IMG/VR virus record: IMGVR_UViG_3300042544_002013
Span: 1-21,457 of that record
DNA length: 21,457 nt
Origin: a virus
Strand: one strand, 5' to 3'
Part shown: piece by piece, positions 2,558-17,977 of the stretch
Layout of the letters: the number at the start of each line of letters is the position of its first letter
Numbering within the stretch: position 1 is the stretch's first letter
The notes under the pieces: generated by a model
Told to the model about the DNA's origin: nothing
The model's input: the letters and a program-made list of their open reading frames with translations, nothing else
Databases searched by the model: none
Made by a program: the position numbers and the translations under genes

Positions 2558-3773
2558 AGAGTTTAAGAAACTCAAAGACATTGATTTAAAGATTGATGGT
2601 CAAAATATATGGATAAAAGGCGAGAACGGCATGGGGAAATCAACCCTCATGCAGTTCATTGAAGCTGCTTTAGGTAGTAAGAACGCTATTCCCCCCAACA
2701 CTAACGGAAGTGGACACGTTTGGGCTGATAAAGATGGGAAGCAATATGTTTTCTCTTTAGAGTTAAAAGATGGTAAAACAAAAGTAGTAGTTGAGTGCGA
2801 TGGTATGAAAGATAGTAGCAAGTCTGCTATTGCTGCTATTGTAGGTAAGATTGACTTTGATATTGATGAGTTCGTTAAACTATCCGAAACAGAAAAGGGA
2901 CGTAAAGAGCAAGTTCTTATCTATAAGAATATGATGCCTCAAGAGGTTATCGAATGGATGGCACGAATTGAACACGATATTAAAGCAGAGTTTGAAGACA
3001 GGGCAGGTGTTAATTCTAAAATAAAAACTTTGGAGGGCTTTATCAAAGAAAGCCCCTTGTTCGGTAAAGACTTAGACATCAAGCCTAAAGATGCTGCTGA
3101 AATTCAGTACGAACTTGAGAAGGCTAATAAGATTAACGATATGTGGGATAGAGCTACAAACTCAATAGTAACACGCAAACAGAATATAGCTAAGTGGGAG
3201 GAAGAAATAGCTACTTTAATGGCTAAGTGCGAGAAAGATAAAACAGATATTGATATTGCGGAGAAATGGCTATTTACCAACAAGAAAATAGATATTGGAA
3301 CTATTACATCTCAATTTGATACTATCAGCGAGCATAATAAAATGGCTCATCAGGCAGCCGAACAAAAGAAAAAGGTTGCCGAAGTAGAAAAGCTAAAAGA
3401 AGAAGCGGGTAATTATACCGTTAGGATTGAAACTAAAAGACACGAACTACAAGAATGTGTTAAGTCTTTAGACCCTATCGTAGATGGGCTTTCTTTTGAT
3501 GAAGAGGGTTTGGTTTATAAAGGAACTCCCGTACATATCAATAGTATGGCTACAAGTGAGATTATAGAACTTGGCTTTAAAATGAAAATGGCACAAAATC
3601 CCGACTTGGGTATTATCTGTTTAGAGCATGGAGAAAGTATTGGTAACGATAGGCTTAAATACATCTTAGAGATAGCTAAAAAGAATAATTGGCAAGTTAT
3701 GTTGGAACACGTTGTAAGAGGTCAAGACAAATTAACTATTGAGTTTATAGGAGGAGAATATGACAAAACGTAG
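2532..3773 (+). CDS. RecF/Rad50-type AAA ATPase
   Basis: 413 aa. N-terminal I-K-E-F-K-K-L-K-D-I-D-L pattern typical of SMC/RecF ATPase heads, then Walker A G-E-N-G-M-G-K-S-T (residues 30-38). A Lys/Glu-rich central part (about 180-310) is predicted to be a short coiled coil. The C-terminal part (L-G-I-I-C-L-E-H-G-E...) looks like the Walker B/D-loop region, but the usual Asp-Glu pair is altered to Leu-Glu-His, so ATP hydrolysis may be weak. Members of this group act with nucleases or ssDNA-binding proteins in end processing; the SSB-like gene upstream fits. The last 14 nt overlap the next gene. Confidence 0.75.
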   Translation: MKIQRVKIKEFKKLKDIDLKIDGQNIWIKGENGMGKSTLMQFIEAALGSKNAIPPNTNGSGHVWADKDGKQYVFSLELKDGKTKVVVECDGMKDSSKSAIAAIVGKIDFDIDEFVKLSETEKGRKEQVLIYKNMMPQEVIEWMARIEHDIKAEFEDRAGVNSKIKTLEGFIKESPLFGKDLDIKPKDAAEIQYELEKANKINDMWDRATNSIVTRKQNIAKWEEEIATLMAKCEKDKTDIDIAEKWLFTNKKIDIGTITSQFDTISEHNKMAHQAAEQKKKVAEVEKLKEEAGNYTVRIETKRHELQECVKSLDPIVDGLSFDEEGLVYKGTPVHINSMATSEIIELGFKMKMAQNPDLGIICLEHGESIGNDRLKYILEIAKKNNWQVMLEHVVRGQDKLTIEFIGGEYDKT

Positions 3774-4209
3774 AGCGGATTTTAAAGTGCAGGGGTTTTT
3801 CAAGTATTTGCAAGACAAGTATAACATAGAAGATATGACGAAGGATTATAGCAACTATATGGATATTATAGAAAACTCTCAATCATCTGTAAAGCATTAT
3901 CCTGAATTGGAAATTTCTAACACTATTTTTGAAGATATTCTTTCAACCGTATCCGCAGCATCGGGTGTCTATCGTCAAGATATTCTTTCTAAAAGCCGAA
4001 GGAGAGAAGTTGTTTTATCAAGACACCTTATAACATATTATTGTTATCAAAAGAGAATAGGTTCTCTCGCTTGGATAGGTAAGAAGATAGGTAATAAAGA
4101 CCATTCAACCGTAATTCACGCAAGAGATGGGATAGAAGACCTTTTGGAGATAAAAGATAGTAACCTTATGCCCTTGTATGAAATAACAAAACATTTATTA
4201 GATTCGTAA
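3760..4209 (+). CDS. stand-alone DnaA domain IV-like DNA-binding protein
   Basis: 149 aa. Residues about 56-130 match the C-terminal DNA-binding domain of DnaA: S-G-V-Y-R-Q-D-I-L-S-K-S-R-R-R-E-V-V-L-S-R-H, then a helix-turn-helix ending in the signature K-D-H-S-T-V-I-H-A (113-121). This domain recognises DnaA boxes in the host protein. No AAA+ ATPase domain precedes it; the first 50 residues are charged and unassigned. It overlaps the end of the ATPase gene by 14 nt. It might load replication proteins at the phage origin or compete with host DnaA at the host origin; both roles are inference. The domain call is confident. Confidence 0.85.
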   Translation: MTKRRADFKVQGFFKYLQDKYNIEDMTKDYSNYMDIIENSQSSVKHYPELEISNTIFEDILSTVSAASGVYRQDILSKSRRREVVLSRHLITYYCYQKRIGSLAWIGKKIGNKDHSTVIHARDGIEDLLEIKDSNLMPLYEITKHLLDS

Positions 4210-5199: not shown

Positions 5200-5631
5200 A
5201 TGGAACTTAAAAAGAAACTCTGCAAATGCGGATGCAATCAAATAGGGTACTATTGGAAGAGTGGATACCTAAAAGGACACCACCCTGACGACACGAAAAA
5301 GCCAATAAAAAAAGTATCGGAAAAAGGAAAGGTTAAAATGAAAGAAAGCAACAACTACTACCGAATGGCTATCGGAATTAATATCGTAAAAAACAAAGGC
5401 AAATGTATTTGTGAAGAATGTGGAGAGGAGATATTATATCCCGTTGGGGCAAACGTATCTCACATACTCTCAAAAGGGGCGAAACCTGATTTGTATACAA
5501 ATATACTTAACCACAAAATATTATGCGTTAAACATCATCAAATGTGGGAAACGGGAGATAGAAAAAGCATGAAAATTTATGATGAATGTATGAGTATTAG
5601 AGAGGGATTATTAAAAAAAAGTTATGAATAA
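5200..5631 (+). CDS. HNH nuclease-like zinc protein
   Basis: 143 aa. The N-terminus holds C8-K-C-G-C12 and an H27-H28 pair, probably a first zinc site. The C-terminal half has C71-E-E-C74, then V-S-H88-I-L-S-K-G, an Asn in the following helix, C109 and H112-H113-Q-M-W. This is the order of a cysteine-supported HNH fold as in phage NinG-like or HNH endonucleases. The spacing fits a nuclease of the recombination module rather than a homing enzyme. Catalytic competence depends on H88, which is present. Next to the DUF1064 gene and the DnaQ-like exonuclease. Confidence 0.65.
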   Translation: MELKKKLCKCGCNQIGYYWKSGYLKGHHPDDTKKPIKKVSEKGKVKMKESNNYYRMAIGINIVKNKGKCICEECGEEILYPVGANVSHILSKGAKPDLYTNILNHKILCVKHHQMWETGDRKSMKIYDECMSIREGLLKKSYE

Positions 5632-5644
5632 TAAAAAAAATATT

Positions 5645-5768
5645 TATATTTGTATCGTTCGTCCACTATATGAAAATATTTAAAACATTCCCATCATTTA
5701 CATTGCCTTATGCTAATATCTTAGCAAGTGGACGAACCTTTGTATTTGATGGGGTTTTTTATTTATGA
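5645..5768 (+). promoter_or_regulatory. promoter plus structured leader element, copy 1
   Basis: Begins with TATATTTG (5645-5652). Four nt later GTTCGTCCACT (5657-5667) can pair perfectly with AGTGGACGAAC (5727-5737). The element ends with CCTTTGTATT, a GGGG run and six T just before the ATG at 5765. A second copy at 9545-9678 keeps the order, spacing and several words (ATGAAAATATT, TACATTGCC, CCTTTGTATT, G-run/T-run) but has a different stem sequence that still pairs. This supports a functional RNA structure controlling the homing endonuclease gene. Confidence 0.6.
5670..5768 (+). CDS. leader peptide candidate, 32 aa
   Basis: Short reading frame starting ATGAAAATATTTAAA inside the leader element, giving M-K-I-F-K-T-F-P-S-F... 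and ending with TGA that overlaps the ATG of the downstream HNH gene (ATGA). The other copy at 9571-9678 starts M-K-I-L-K-I-I-P-P-S. The ATG lies directly after the 5' arm of the stem, and the 3' arm is inside the reading frame, so ribosome passage would open the stem. That is the logic of a translation-coupled attenuator, but coding is not proven. Confidence 0.4.
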   Translation: MKIFKTFPSFTLPYANILASGRTFVFDGVFYL

Positions 5769-6601
5769 AATTAAAAACATTGATTTTAAATAATCGGAAA
5801 TGTATAGTTTACGAGGATGGTCAAGTGTATATCCTACCATTTTCAACTATAAAAAGGAATTACAAGGGGCATTTTGCAGTTCAAAGAGATAATGGTCACG
5901 GATATATTAGCTGTACTATAAATAGGAAACATTTATATATTCACAGGATAGTCGCATTAGCATTTATCCCAAACCCTGAAAATAAACCTCAAATAAACCA
6001 TAAAAACAATATTCGTTCTGATAATAGAATTGAAAACCTTGAGTGGTGTACTGTAAAAGAAAATATAGAGCATTGCGTCAAACAAAATAGGCAAAGAAAT
6101 GGCAAAAATCTTTTGTGCTTTAATGAGGAAGGTATGATTGTAGGCGAATTTAAAAGCTTTAGACATTTAGAACAAAATGTAACAAATTGCAGTAAAATAT
6201 ATAATGTTATTACTAATAAACAAAAACTTGCGTTTGGTTTACATTGGATGTATAAAACAGAATATGAAAAATCTACTGTATCAGTAAATGACATAAAAAA
6301 TAAATTTATAGATTTTTCAGCACAACCAATAAAAGTAACATTTAAAGATGGTACAGTTAAAATTTACGAATCAATGAATTTAATAATAAAAAATTTAGGT
6401 ATAAACATATCGGTAATAAAAGCTTTATGTTCAGGAAAGAAAGATAAACACGAAAGCGGTATAAATTGTGAATATTTGCCTAAAACCAATACAAAAAAGA
6501 GATTAATTAAAAATCAATATAATAATATGAGTGCTTTAGAATTTTTAGAAAAATCTAAAAATGTGAACATTTTAAGAAACCAAAAACAGCAACAGCAATG
6601 A
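5765..6601 (+). CDS. HNH homing endonuclease (HNH_3 type)
   Basis: 278 aa. Core about residues 58-105: Y-I-H60-R-I-V-A-L-A-F-I-P-N-P, then Q-I-N-H79-K-N, and N-R-I-E-N-L-E-W-C-T, the typical HNH_3 pattern of free-standing phage homing nucleases. The C-terminal part contains F-N-E-E-G-M-I-V-G-E-F-K-S-F with later H-W-M-Y, which resembles a NUMOD1-type DNA-binding repeat, and a Gln-rich end. It lies between two replication/recombination genes, has its own promoter and leader, and its stop overlaps the ATG of the exonuclease as ATGA. No split gene or intron core is evident, so it looks free-standing. Confidence 0.85.
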   Translation: MKLKTLILNNRKCIVYEDGQVYILPFSTIKRNYKGHFAVQRDNGHGYISCTINRKHLYIHRIVALAFIPNPENKPQINHKNNIRSDNRIENLEWCTVKENIEHCVKQNRQRNGKNLLCFNEEGMIVGEFKSFRHLEQNVTNCSKIYNVITNKQKLAFGLHWMYKTEYEKSTVSVNDIKNKFIDFSAQPIKVTFKDGTVKIYESMNLIIKNLGINISVIKALCSGKKDKHESGINCEYLPKTNTKKRLIKNQYNNMSALEFLEKSKNVNILRNQKQQQQ

Positions 6602-7247: not shown

Positions 7248-7865
7248 ATGAAAACATCAGTAACAATGGAACGTAAAATGGGTGATTTAATTGTTCATCA
7301 AAGAACACATGACGGAATGTTCAATGCAACAGCCCTCTTAAAGCAATGGAATACTACTAAAAAAACAAGGAAAGATGTTTCGGCATTTCTTAAACTTGAC
7401 GCTACAAAAGAATTTATAACAGCCTTAGAATCAGCCGAAACAAGAAAAGTCGTATCGGTAATTAAGGGTGGGAATAAAAGTCAAGGTACTTGGATGAACC
7501 CTCTTTTATTTATTGATTTTGCCATGTGGATTAACCCTACATTTAAAGTACAAGTATTGAGATTTGTCTATGACGAATTGATAAAAGAAAGGAATGATGC
7601 AGGGGATAATTATAGAGTATTATCTGCTTCGGGAGTTAAGTTAAAAGGATATGATTTTGCGGAAGTTGCAGTTGCCTTGCAATGGATTATATTTAACACA
7701 AGCGGTAAAAACCTAAGACAAATAGCTACACAAGAGCAATTAAAAGAACTTAATGACTTGCAAACCAAATTAGCTTTTGCTATTGATATGGGTTACATTA
7801 CAACATATCCTCAACTACTAGAAGAATTAAGAAAAATTTGGAATAACAAAAATAGAAAGTTTTAA
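7248..7865 (+). CDS. KilA-N domain regulator
   Basis: 205 aa. The KilA-N domain spans about residues 20-110: G-M-F-N-A-T-A-L-L-K-Q-W-N, K-K-T-R-K-D-V-S-A-F-L-K, then G-T-W-M-N-P-L-L-F-I-D-F-A-M-W-I-N-P-T-F and V-L-R-F-V-Y-D-E-L-I. These are the signature blocks of KilA-N DNA-binding domains in phages and large DNA viruses. The C-terminal 90 residues are helical and unassigned. It has its own promoter with repeats upstream, so autoregulation is plausible. The role (repressor, antirepressor or host-takeover factor) cannot be settled. Confidence 0.85.
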   Translation: MKTSVTMERKMGDLIVHQRTHDGMFNATALLKQWNTTKKTRKDVSAFLKLDATKEFITALESAETRKVVSVIKGGNKSQGTWMNPLLFIDFAMWINPTFKVQVLRFVYDELIKERNDAGDNYRVLSASGVKLKGYDFAEVAVALQWIIFNTSGKNLRQIATQEQLKELNDLQTKLAFAIDMGYITTYPQLLEELRKIWNNKNRKF

Positions 7866-9544: not shown

Positions 9545-9678
9545 TATATTTGTACCGCAGTTTCTAGATTATGAAAATATTAAAAATAATTCCTCCTTCA
9601 ATACATTGCCAAAGCTTGCATCTACGCAACTCTAGGACTGCCTTTGTATTGTTGGGGGGTTTTTGTTTATATGAATGA
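9545..9678 (+). promoter_or_regulatory. promoter plus structured leader element, copy 2
   Basis: TATATTTG (9545-9552), then after 4 nt GCAGTTTCTAGA (9557-9568), which pairs with TCTAGGACTGC (9631-9641) with one bulged T and one G-T pair. The words ATGAAAATATT, TACATTGCC, CCTTTGTATT and the final G-run plus T-run are shared with copy 1 at 5645. The stem sequence differs completely from copy 1 yet still pairs, i.e. compensatory change. An additional -7-like TAACATTTG lies upstream near 9517-9525. Confidence 0.6.
9571..9678 (+). CDS. leader peptide candidate, 35 aa
   Basis: Reading frame in the second leader element, starting M-K-I-L-K-I-I-P-P-S and containing the 3' stem arm. Its TGA overlaps the downstream gene start as ATGAATGA. 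The counterpart at 5670-5768 has the same start and the same overlap, but the downstream gene is in a different relative frame, so termination-reinitiation rather than frameshifting is the likely link. Confidence 0.4.
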   Translation: MKILKIIPPSIHCQSLHLRNSRTAFVLLGGFCLYE

Positions 9679-10288
9679 GTTTAATAAAAATCAATACGCA
9701 GTTTTAACAGCTTCTATACTTTATAGAAAAGATATAACACCACGCCAAAAGATTTTAGTAGCTATGATTTCTAACATGAGTAATGAAAAAGGATATTGTT
9801 GGGCTTCTAACAAACATTTTTCAGAATGTTTTGACTGCGAAGAGCGAACAATTCAAAGAGATTTACAAGAGTTAGAAGAGAAAAAAATACTTAATCGTGT
9901 AATTAACTTAAATTCAGACGGTTCTGTTAAATTTAGGGCGTTAATAATAATAGAAGCAGGGGTGACACAGATGTCAGGGGGTGGTGACAATCTTGTCAGG
10001 AGGGAGGGTGACACAGATGTCATATATAAAAACAAAGTTTTAAAAACAAATAAGAAAAGGGTAGAATTTACCCCTCCAACTATTGAAGAAGTAACTACTT
10101 ATTTTGTAGAAAAAGGATATAGTAAACATACAGCAGAAACAGCATTCAATTATTATCAAAATTTAGAATGGAAAGATTCTAATAATAAACAAGTAGTTAA
10201 TTGGAAATCAAAAATGATTGCCGTATGGATGAAAGAAGAAAATAAAATAAAATCAGTTGAACCTTTTAAAATTACATTTCCACGATGA
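9671..10288 (+). CDS. HTH replication initiator-like protein
   Basis: 205 aa from the ATG at 9671; an in-frame TTG at 9644 lies inside the leader and is a less likely start. Residues 8-80 form a winged helix pattern of the HTH_36 kind: T-P-R-Q-K-I-L-V-A-M-I-S, N-E-K-G-Y-C-W-A-S-N-K-H-F-S-E, E-R-T-I-Q-R-D-L-Q-E-L-E-E-K. The C-terminal half (about 130-205) with N-Y-Y-x-N-L-E-W and N-W-K-S-K-M-I-A-V-W resembles DnaD/DnaC-like helicase-loader ends. Three TGACA-N4-TGTCA palindromes lie in the middle (residues 98-118). Its stop overlaps the primase-helicase start. This gene order, initiator then helicase, fits a lambda O/P-like replication module. Confidence 0.75.
   Translation: MNEFNKNQYAVLTASILYRKDITPRQKILVAMISNMSNEKGYCWASNKHFSECFDCEERTIQRDLQELEEKKILNRVINLNSDGSVKFRALIIIEAGVTQMSGGGDNLVRREGDTDVIYKNKVLKTNKKRVEFTPPTIEEVTTYFVEKGYSKHTAETAFNYYQNLEWKDSNNKQVVNWKSKMIAVWMKEENKIKSVEPFKITFPR
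9963..10022 (+). repeat. three iteron-like hyphenated palindromes (candidate origin)
   Basis: TGACACAGATGTCA at 9963-9976, TGACAATCTTGTCA at 9985-9998 and TGACACAGATGTCA at 10009-10022: each is TGACA-N4-TGTCA, at 22- and 24-bp spacing, separated by G-rich spacers. An A/T-only stretch with A-runs follows directly (10023-10060). Repeats plus an easily melted region inside an initiator gene is the layout of the lambda origin within gene O. Confidence 0.6.
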
Positions 10289-12120
10289 AAGCATATTCAG
10301 ATTATGGGATAGATATTCCAAATAATAAATATAAAGGGGAGGTAGTTGCTATTTGCCCCGAATGTTCGCACACCCGAAAAAAGAAAAAAGAAAAGTGTTT
10401 AGGTGTAAATTTAGATAAAAAAATATGGCATTGTAATCATTGTGGTTGGAAGGGGGGGTTACCTAATGAGTTTAAAATAGAAACAAAAACTTATATAAAA
10501 CCAATAGCTTCAAACAAAACAGGAGCAAGTGAAAATTTAATTAAATGGTTTGAAAGCAGGGGTATTAATCAAGAAACATTAAACCATTTTAAAATAGTAG
10601 ATAAAAAAGAATGGATGCCTCAAACCCAAAAGGAAGAAAATGTATGTATGTTTCAGTATTTTAGGAATGATGAATTGATAAATATAAAATATAGGGATGG
10701 TGCAAAAAACTTTAAACTACATAAAGACGCTGAATTGATATTTTACAATTTAGATTCTGTTAAAAATTTTGAAGATTGTTATATTGTTGAAGGAGAAATA
10801 GATTGCTTGTCTTTATACCAATGTGGAATATTTAATGTTTTAAGCGTTCCTAATGGAGCAAATTTGAATAGTAATAACCTAACATACATAGAGAATAGTT
10901 ATGACGAAATATCGCATTTAAAAAGGTTTCATATTGCAACCGATAATGATGTTGCAGGTAGAATGCTTAGAGATGCTATTGCTACAAGGTTTGGCAAGGA
11001 GAATTGTGATTTTATAACTTTTAATGATTGTAAGGATGCTAATGATTGTTTGCAAAAATATGGAACAGAAGAAGTTATGGACTGCATATCTAAAAAATAT
11101 CAGTTTCCAATAGAGGGTGCTTTTACGATAGAAGATTTTAATGATGATATTGATGACTTTTATTACAATGGATTGCCCGTTGGAGCTAAAATAGGAGTAG
11201 AAGAAATTGACAAATTAGTTTCATTTCACAAAGGGTATATATCTGTAATTACGGGAATACCCTCACATGGAAAAACAGCAGCACTTGATTATATTATTAC
11301 GAGATTGAATCTAACCGAAAAATGGACAGGAGCTTTTTATTCCCCCGAAAATAAACCTACAAAATTACATTTTAGTAAATTGGCAAGGCTTTATATAGGA
11401 AAGTCTTGGGATGGGTATAATAAAATGACGTATGATGAAATGAGCGATGTTAAAGAATACCTTAATGATAAGTTTTGGTTTATAAAGCCTGAAAAAGATT
11501 TTACATTAGATACAATACTTAGTAGTGTTAAAAGGTTAATTTTATTAAAAGGTATTGATTTTTTTGTTATAGACGCTTGGAATAAATTAGAGCATAAAGA
11601 CGATAGTACGTCTTATGTTGGCAAGGAATTAGATAAATTAGCAGATTTCTGTGAACTTAATAATGTACATTGCTTTTTAGTTGCACATCCTACAAAGATG
11701 AAAAAAGACAAAGATGGAATAAGATTTGAAGTTCCAAGTCTTTATGATATAAGCGGTTCTGCAAATTTTTATAACAAAGCCGATTTGGGTATTTGTATTT
11801 ATAGAAATTTTGACACCAATGTAACAACAATGATAATTCAAAAAATAAAATTTAATCATTGGGGCGAAACGGGAGCTATTGATTTAAAATACCAATTACA
11901 AAACGGAAGATATTATTTAGAAACAAAAGGTTCAGATAATTCATCATGGTTAAAAAGAACACAAAATTTAGGAGTTTTATCTACCGTAACAAAACCAATA
12001 GTAGAGCAGTCTAATTTAAAGGACACGGAAAAATTTTCAAATAAAACCATTAAACCAAGTTTGAAACTTGAATCATTTAATGTTGAGGAAGAATATGATG
12101 ATGATGTTGCTCCTTTTTAA
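10285..12120 (+). CDS. primase-helicase (TOPRIM + DnaB-like)
   Basis: 611 aa, T7 gp4-like. N-terminal zinc ribbon: C24-P-E-C27 and C50-N-H-C53-G-W-K-G-G. TOPRIM core: Y-I-V-E-G-E-I-D (Glu at 169) and A-T-D220-N-D222-V-A-G. Helicase part from about 295: Walker A G-I-P-S-H-G-K-T (324-331), Walker B F-F-V-I-D (426-430), V-A-H468-P-T, and G-S-A-N-F-Y-N-K-A-D near 491-500. The C-terminus Y-D-D-D-V-A-P-F is an acidic tail ending in Phe, as in T7 gp4, where the tail contacts the DNA polymerase. It would unwind DNA and make primers at the phage fork. The ATG overlaps the initiator stop as ATGA. Confidence 0.9.
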   Translation: MKAYSDYGIDIPNNKYKGEVVAICPECSHTRKKKKEKCLGVNLDKKIWHCNHCGWKGGLPNEFKIETKTYIKPIASNKTGASENLIKWFESRGINQETLNHFKIVDKKEWMPQTQKEENVCMFQYFRNDELINIKYRDGAKNFKLHKDAELIFYNLDSVKNFEDCYIVEGEIDCLSLYQCGIFNVLSVPNGANLNSNNLTYIENSYDEISHLKRFHIATDNDVAGRMLRDAIATRFGKENCDFITFNDCKDANDCLQKYGTEEVMDCISKKYQFPIEGAFTIEDFNDDIDDFYYNGLPVGAKIGVEEIDKLVSFHKGYISVITGIPSHGKTAALDYIITRLNLTEKWTGAFYSPENKPTKLHFSKLARLYIGKSWDGYNKMTYDEMSDVKEYLNDKFWFIKPEKDFTLDTILSSVKRLILLKGIDFFVIDAWNKLEHKDDSTSYVGKELDKLADFCELNNVHCFLVAHPTKMKKDKDGIRFEVPSLYDISGSANFYNKADLGICIYRNFDTNVTTMIIQKIKFNHWGETGAIDLKYQLQNGRYYLETKGSDNSSWLKRTQNLGVLSTVTKPIVEQSNLKDTEKFSNKTIKPSLKLESFNVEEEYDDDVAPF

Positions 12121-17428: not shown

Positions 17429-17977
17429 TTATTTAATAGTCAAAATTTGTTTACGATTGCCAGTCTTTTTAAGTGGTAAATTTGTTATATGTGTCCAACT
17501 ATACCCCCTCTTTATATCAGATATAGTAGGAATTGATATATTGTATTCGTTTGAAATTAGTTTATACATTCTATTATCTTTTAATATTTTTAATACAATA
17601 TCCTCTGTTAATTTACTTTGAGAATTTTTTATACCTTTAGTTGTTCTTAAACCTTTTTCAATAGCGTGTAATTGATTTTCAGACCTTGTACACCACTCTA
17701 AATTATATAAATTATTATTTAATTTATTTCCATCTTTATGGTTAACTTGTGGTTTATTTTCCAAATTATCATTAAATGCACTACAAACAATTCTATGTAA
17801 TAAAAATCTTTTTATATTTATTCCATTACCTAAATCAATTGCATAATAACCATTTTGAAACACTGGCTTAAGTATTTTTTCATAAGTTCTGTGTGGTTTT
17901 TTTAAACTTTTAATTCTACCAAAATTGCTTACCTCATAGCGATTTTCATAAAGAGGTATTGTTTTCCATATTTCCAT
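17429..17977 (-). CDS. NUMOD4-HNH homing endonuclease
   Basis: 182 aa. NUMOD4 motif at the start (W-K-T-I-P-L-Y-E-N-R-Y-E-V-S-N-F-G-R-I-K-S-L), then HNH_3: L-L-H61-R-I-V, Q-V-N-H80-K-D-G, N-L-Y-N-L-E-W-C. A small C-terminal HTH (T-I-S-D-I-K-R-G-Y-S-W-T-H-I) follows. The last 14 residues, L-K-K-T-G-N-R-K-Q-I-L-T-I-K, repeat the tail of the adjacent endolysin. It has its own promoter and interrupts the lysis operon, so it is probably a mobile insertion. Confidence 0.85.
   Translation of the reverse strand: MEIWKTIPLYENRYEVSNFGRIKSLKKPHRTYEKILKPVFQNGYYAIDLGNGINIKRFLLHRIVCSAFNDNLENKPQVNHKDGNKLNNNLYNLEWCTRSENQLHAIEKGLRTTKGIKNSQSKLTEDIVLKILKDNRMYKLISNEYNISIPTISDIKRGYSWTHITNLPLKKTGNRKQILTIK

Follow-up and report, generated by a model that had tools for sequence, protein, structure and literature searches.

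A candidate replication origin inside an HTH_36-type phage initiator gene, with palindromic iterons whose arms covary with the recognition helix

Known intragenic origins and the locus compared with them

In phage lambda, the initiator O brings in P and DnaB. The origin of lambdoid phages lies in the middle of gene O and combines inverted-repeat iterons with an AT-rich region, and the addition of iterons merely lengthens the protein (PMC7466680). In SPP1, oriL is located inside gene 38 and consists of direct repeats and an AT-rich unwinding element, and gp38 acts with the loader gp39 and the helicase gp40 (PMC6316719). Researchers have proven the pSK41 origin, which lies centrally in rep and encodes a linker that is dispensable as protein; the RepA_N initiators of pSK41 and pSK1 have an N-terminal winged helix-turn-helix (wHTH) domain and a C-terminal domain that contacts primase, and in the hybrid Rep of pPR9, whose mini-replicon replicates, an HTH_36-type N-terminus sits on the pSK41 C-terminus and was exchanged along with the origin region (PMC5703833). 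In RepA of the Vibrio cholerae satellite PLE, the DNA-binding domain covaries with the iterons, the C-terminus is conserved, and only cognate pairs replicate (PMC8263062). Intragenic origins and the covariation of initiator domains with iterons (PLE RepA, PMC8263062) are thus already known, and what is of interest here is the family-wide helix-iteron code.

We analysed a stretch of viral DNA of 21,457 bases (the window) and propose, with a probability of roughly 0.88, that positions 9963-10060 are a phage replication origin inside its own initiator gene, in which the wHTH domain would bind the palindromes, the AT tract would melt and the helicase would be recruited. As in lambda O and ori-lambda, palindromic iterons lie mid-gene and are followed by an AT-rich region, but lambda has four iterons of a different sequence, and the next gene in the window encodes a primase-helicase with Toprim and DnaB_C domains instead of the loader P. 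The candidate origin and the AT-rich element also lie within the initiator gene as in SPP1 gp38/oriL, although in SPP1 another origin, oriR, is located at a distance of about 13 kb. Comparison with the RepA_N rep of plasmid pUSA03, where copies of AATGTCAAAAGGACACGTCTAG follow each other at 23 bp and TGTC-N5-GACA half-sites are present, shows the same central position of the origin boxes within the initiator gene; unlike pSK41 and pSK1, which are plasmids with antisense RNA control, the window has different arms and a protein without the RepA_N Pfam domain. The HTH_36 hybrid form of rep is present in pV030-8 and p9696_cfr, and the pPR9-type rep of pV030-8 resembles the window gene in carrying mid-gene repeats followed by AATAATACTAAT repeats, but the pPR9-type hybrid belongs to a Gram-positive plasmid, has different repeats and scores weakly for HTH_36 (E 0.0064). 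PLE RepA differs in its intergenic origin and its RepA_N domain. We also observed that pUSA03 rep (L457 101-1060, NC_007792.1) encodes RepA_N, though pUSA03 is named as an HTH_36 hybrid in PMC5703833.

The initiator gene, its palindromes and the AT-rich tract

The initiator-like gene lies on the plus strand at 9674-10288 and encodes 204 amino acids from the ATG at 9674; an alternative in-frame TTG start is possible at 9644. Its product scored above the cut-off for HTH_36 (PF13730, E 1.8e-8, 34.5 bits, cut-off 25) and matched phrog_270 'replication initiation protein' (E 1.7e-13) and phrog_428 (2e-12). RepA_N (PF06970) gave no match to this protein at E 0.1, and Phage_rep_O (PF04492) reached 15.8 bits (E 0.02), below its cut-off of 28.7; judged by these profiles, the family is HTH_36 and not Phage_rep_O or RepA_N. 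The initial annotation had called the origin lambda-like, a term that suits the layout and the proposed mechanism and, given the Phage_rep_O score, does not extend to the family. It had also placed the initiator-like gene before a primase-helicase, and this gene order holds: the presumed partner gene at 10285-12120 on the plus strand encodes Toprim (PF13155, 1.3e-10) and DnaB_C (PF03796, 5.4e-10) and matches phrog_239 'DNA primase/helicase' (4.7e-92).

Profile alignment and an AlphaFold model assign residues 22-73 (9737-9892, plus strand) to the wHTH domain, which we propose to be iteron-binding; pLDDT was mostly 81-93 over residues 11-80, and the confidently modelled wHTH spans residues about 10-92. 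The recognition helix, placed by DSSP on the model and by covariation with the arms, comprises residues 57-69 (9842-9880, plus strand), and the proposed specificity residues R58 (9845-9847), Q61 (9854-9856) and R62 (9857-9859), all on the plus strand, covary with the palindrome arms. A C-terminal helical domain (residues 130-193, 10061-10252, plus strand; pLDDT mostly 76-85) is the proposed contact for the primase-helicase. The top Foldseek matches of the model were the RepA_N initiators 4pql, 5kbj (a Rep-DNA complex) and 4pt7, at weak E-values of 3e-3 to 1e-2 and TM-scores of 0.33 (query) and about 0.5 (target), and MarR proteins ranked shortly after them; a sequence search of the PDB with the protein returned chance matches only.

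In the coding sequence, the palindromes sit between these two domains. Three exact TGACA-N4-TGTCA palindromes, all without strand assignment, occur at 9963-9976 (TGACACAGATGTCA, translated VTQMS), 9985-9998 (TGACAATCTTGTCA, translated GDNLVR in the other frame) and 10009-10022 (TGACACAGATGTCA, translated GDTDVI), and there is no further copy in the 21,457 bases. Their start-to-start spacing is 22 and 24 bp, so that both the coordinates and the spacing given in the initial annotation were confirmed within the ORF at 9674-10288. In 100 dinucleotide shuffles of the window, the mean number of such palindromes was 0.01 and three were never obtained. Copies 1 and 3, 46 bp apart, have in common the exact 17-mer GGGTGACACAGATGTCA, which is translated as G-V-T-Q-M-S in copy 1 (frame 1) and as G-D-T-D-V-I in copy 3 (frame 2); as its reading frame differs between the copies, the repeated unit is DNA and not a peptide. 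Frame 0 reading of the palindrome would introduce a TGA stop. When the repeat segment was synonymously recoded 100,000 times with the codon usage of the window, one palindrome was present in 2.0% of the runs, two in 0.011% and three in none. The linker-coding segment, residues 97-129 (9962-10060, plus strand), had a pLDDT of about 37-47 per block of ten, with values below 50 for residues 97-115 and 123-129, and is predicted to be disordered; the initial annotation had described it as low-complexity. We propose from these sequence data that the array sites are under selection as DNA and that the encoded segment is a disordered linker, a product of the candidate origin DNA.

The spacers between the palindromes are GGGGGTGG and GGAGGGAGGG. 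Their G-richness, pointed out in the initial annotation, is real in the window and is not a conserved feature, as the same strand is C-rich in L090, L142 and L008, the nearest relatives that have this register. A G-quadruplex or G-run role of the spacers was dropped for this reason and because the sole signal in the flanking profile of the arrays was an additional G/C pair at the palindrome ends. Directly after the array lies an AT-rich tract without strand assignment (10023-10060), proposed as the unwinding element, with direct repeats of TAAAAACAAA at 10027-10036 and 10041-10050. Described previously as a stretch of A and T only, it is strictly so for 10 bases (10023-10032), and the 38 bases together have an A+T content of 84%, compared with 68% in the window; 4.2% of 38-mers are as AT-rich. 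AT-rich repeats related to TAAAAACAAA also follow the array in L090, L142, L008 and L009, and at 78 array loci among the matches listed the A+T content of the 50 bp 3' of the array exceeded that of the locus by 8.6 points (p=5e-9).

Relatives, arrays found by DNA and the helix-arm pairing

Four loci (L004-L007) are near-identical copies of the window virus, and L008-L010 are about 45-51% identical to it in the best segment. The register of the palindromes (-46/-24/0) is kept in L008-L010, L090 and L142 with one to three exact copies, the last copy alone being exact in L008-L010. Because the palindromes keep register in relatives that are 33-49% identical in protein, the absence of the repeats from relatives with the same protein type, named beforehand as an outcome that would count against the origin, did not occur. 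The Flavobacterium phages elemoC, morran and tooticki have only the C-terminal domain and the primase-helicase in common with the window; their N-terminal domains (DUF6291, DUF1376-like) and their mid-gene repeats are different. As judged from these sequences, the DNA-binding domain and the mid-gene repeats change jointly between the window and the Flavobacterium phages, and the C-terminus stays. A relative in Psychrobacter phage Y8A has TGACA-N3-TGTCA palindromes, followed by a replication protein P gene.

IMG/VR was scanned by DNA alone for tandem pairs of TGACA-N4-TGTCA, which gave at least 119 loci, compared with 6 for the non-palindromic control TGACA-N4-ATCTG and 6 for the arbitrary palindrome CATCT-N4-AGATG. 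The reverse arrangement TGTCA-N4-TGACA was rejected as a null for the scan, since it turned out to represent a further arm class within the family (32/68 host ORFs HTH_36). Among the matches listed, which come from many phage groups, 74 of 119 had the array entirely within a wHTH ORF; the other 45 did not by the profile used, 9 of them being near locus ends. The non-redundant host ORFs among these matches belonged to HTH_36 in 50/82 cases and to phrog_270 in 51/82, and they carried the palindromes in more than one frame in 39/82 cases and in the stop-giving frame in none. Array spacing in the listed matches peaked at 18, 21-24 and 33-34 bp. DnaB_C was found in 10/68 genes downstream of the listed array ORFs versus 1/67 upstream, and the downstream genes also included Toprim proteins, DnaC-like ATPases, lambda P and G39P. 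As proof of an origin, the motif is insufficient by itself, because the 45/119 listed viral arrays and 33/46 chromosomal triple arrays do not lie entirely within a wHTH ORF. Bacillaceae chromosomes (L319, L320, L329, L337, L339 and L348) carry triple TGACA-N4-TGTCA arrays of about 79-81 bp overall outside wHTH ORFs, which are probably a different regulatory element, and a long ORF of repeated AEFDKIVNAAWAEFDKIV units that includes TGACA palindromes (L113 10123-11031) was probably picked up falsely by the DNA scan on account of its protein repeat.

Relatives selected by protein instead of DNA included some without TGACA arms, and these carried palindromes of equal geometry with other arms, for example of the GAAC/GGAAC and TTAAC types; for palindromes with any arms, 20/40 protein-selected relatives beat the synonymous null at p<0.05. 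The pattern GGAAC-N4-GTTCC, predicted from relatives, gave 74 loci with the array inside the wHTH ORF in 34. For comparison of helices with arms, we used 102 non-redundant wHTH domains (50 TGACA, 32 TGTCA and 20 GGAAC). Profile column 39 (R62 in the window) held Arg in 50/50 TGACA and 30/32 TGTCA proteins and in 0/20 GGAAC proteins (Fisher p 6e-18), and column 38 (Q61) held Arg in 19/20 GGAAC proteins and 2/50 TGACA proteins (Fisher p 6e-14). At column 35 (R58), Arg occurred in 49/50 TGACA and 17/32 TGTCA proteins, the latter having Ser in 11 (Fisher p 7e-7). For 10 of the 20 GGAAC proteins, the nearest neighbour outside the helix came from another arm class, and the helix still tracked the arms. 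Held-out chromosomal wHTH genes with TGACA arrays had the TGACA helix pattern in 13/13 cases. A natural pair is provided by L109 and L397, whose DNA is 86% identical, aligned through both flanks and in the same 24-bp register: the helix is SERQVIR with TGACA arms in L109 and SERYIRK with GGAAC arms in L397, and all three palindromes differ. Phylogenetic sign tests on a 43-column wHTH tree yielded one independent pair on supported branches and otherwise mostly poorly resolved ones, and this test of the helix code is weak because the tree has few supported branches. Together, the comparisons are strong evidence that the wHTH domain reads the palindromes within its own gene.

In the Firmicutes-type relatives (L011-L080, and also L459 and L461), 15-bp AATAATAC(T/A)AAT repeats that encode NNTxxNNT lie directly after the iterons. 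There are 85 in 4,761 bp of post-iteron zone versus 5 in the other 17,553 bp of the ORFs, at least two are present in 27/29 loci, and they also follow the mid-gene repeats of the staphylococcal plasmid reps of pV030-8 and p9696_cfr. Their TAN triplet period resembles DnaA-trios, and they may have a role in the protein, as the frame is constant (58/59).

Proposed mechanism, alternatives and implications

The placement of the origin inside the initiator gene, as first suggested by the initial annotation, is supported by the sites and their conservation at the DNA level, by the family of the protein and the order of the genes, and by the AT-rich tract next to the array and the covariation of arms and helix. 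We infer binding, dimerisation, melting, helicase recruitment and a replication start at the array. Each TGACA-N4-TGTCA palindrome would be bound by the N-terminal winged-helix domain, probably in dimeric form, with every half-site contacted by one recognition helix whose R58 and R62 read the arm. At a distance of about two helical turns from each other, three such complexes could form an O-some-like assembly that would melt the adjoining AT-rich tract, and the C-terminal domain would then recruit the primase-helicase, the product of the next gene.

Initiators commonly regulate their own expression, and the covariation supports a reading of the sites by the wHTH domain without specifying the effect of binding; the palindromes may accordingly be operators, at which the domain represses or roadblocks its own gene and the replication genes, with replication starting elsewhere. 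This seems unlikely to us, because the sites are some 290 bp into the coding sequence and not at a promoter, an AT-rich repeat tract follows the array not only in the window but also in relatives and across the wider set, helicase genes lie downstream, and the proven lambda and pSK41 origins share the layout (PMC7466680, PMC5703833). Operator and origin roles of the palindromes are compatible. Centromeres, too, can consist of palindromes arrayed in register, and the array might serve the protein as a partition (centromere-like) or incompatibility site while replication starts from a different position, a view favoured by the 33/46 chromosomal arrays outside recognised initiator genes. It is very improbable for the window, where the host protein is a replication-initiator homologue adjoining a primase-helicase and no ParA/ParB gene was noted; moreover, iterons located within the initiator gene have been proven to act as origins for lambda, SPP1 oriL and pSK41 (PMC7466680, PMC6316719, PMC5703833).

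Scarcely credible is an explanation of the repeats without any DNA-binding role, as a repeated peptide arising from low-complexity protein evolution or as mRNA hairpins. The encoded segment is of low complexity, and the RNA of 9950-10045 folds somewhat better than shuffles do (z -2.28), but the palindromes stand in two frames within the window gene and in mixed frames in 39/82 genes among the matches listed, which contradicts a repeated peptide. Their loss on synonymous recoding and the covariation of the arms with the recognition helix speak against it as well, and hairpin stems would be 5 bp without a terminator tail. An RNA element was rejected after no Rfam match and a weak fold were obtained.

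Taking the origin proposal beyond the window, we consider it fairly probable that HTH_36-type initiators of phages, prophages and plasmids from several bacterial phyla are one class of self-recognising replicons, with intragenic palindromic iterons of fixed geometry and arms set by two or three recognition-helix residues (R/R for TGACA, R shifted by one residue for GGAAC, S or R for TGTCA). If this is true, origins and replicon compatibility groups could be read from protein sequence alone. To our knowledge, most environmental and temperate phages lack a known origin, and a palindrome array in an initiator gene would give testable candidate origins, readable from sequence, for many viral contigs. 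Protein and sites change together because the binding sites are encoded in the protein's own gene; the helix-iteron pairing is thus a natural data set on the change of specificity of a DNA-binding domain, with L109/L397 as a ready pair for studying the joint change of helix and site, and it would indicate which phages and plasmids compete for an origin. Our search of the open-access literature, subscription papers being outside its scope, turned up nothing on the arm classes of HTH_36 initiators, on the two-residue code or on palindromes that occur across them irrespective of frame.

GC skew, suggested earlier as a check, gave no support to the origin: there was no switch at 10 kb, and the only sign change lay near 15.5 kb, where gene direction changes. 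An origin based on DnaA boxes was discarded, as TTWTNCACA does not occur in the window. A stand-alone DnaA domain IV protein without the ATPase (3760-4209, Bac_DnaA_C 2e-17) is encoded after a RecF/SMC-like ATPase gene; it is possibly another initiator-related protein, and we counted it against the origin proposal. The window further contains three ORFs that resemble HNH-type endonucleases by sequence reading (5200-5631, 5765-6601 and 17429-17977) and encodes a KilA-N protein (PF04383) at 7248-7865.
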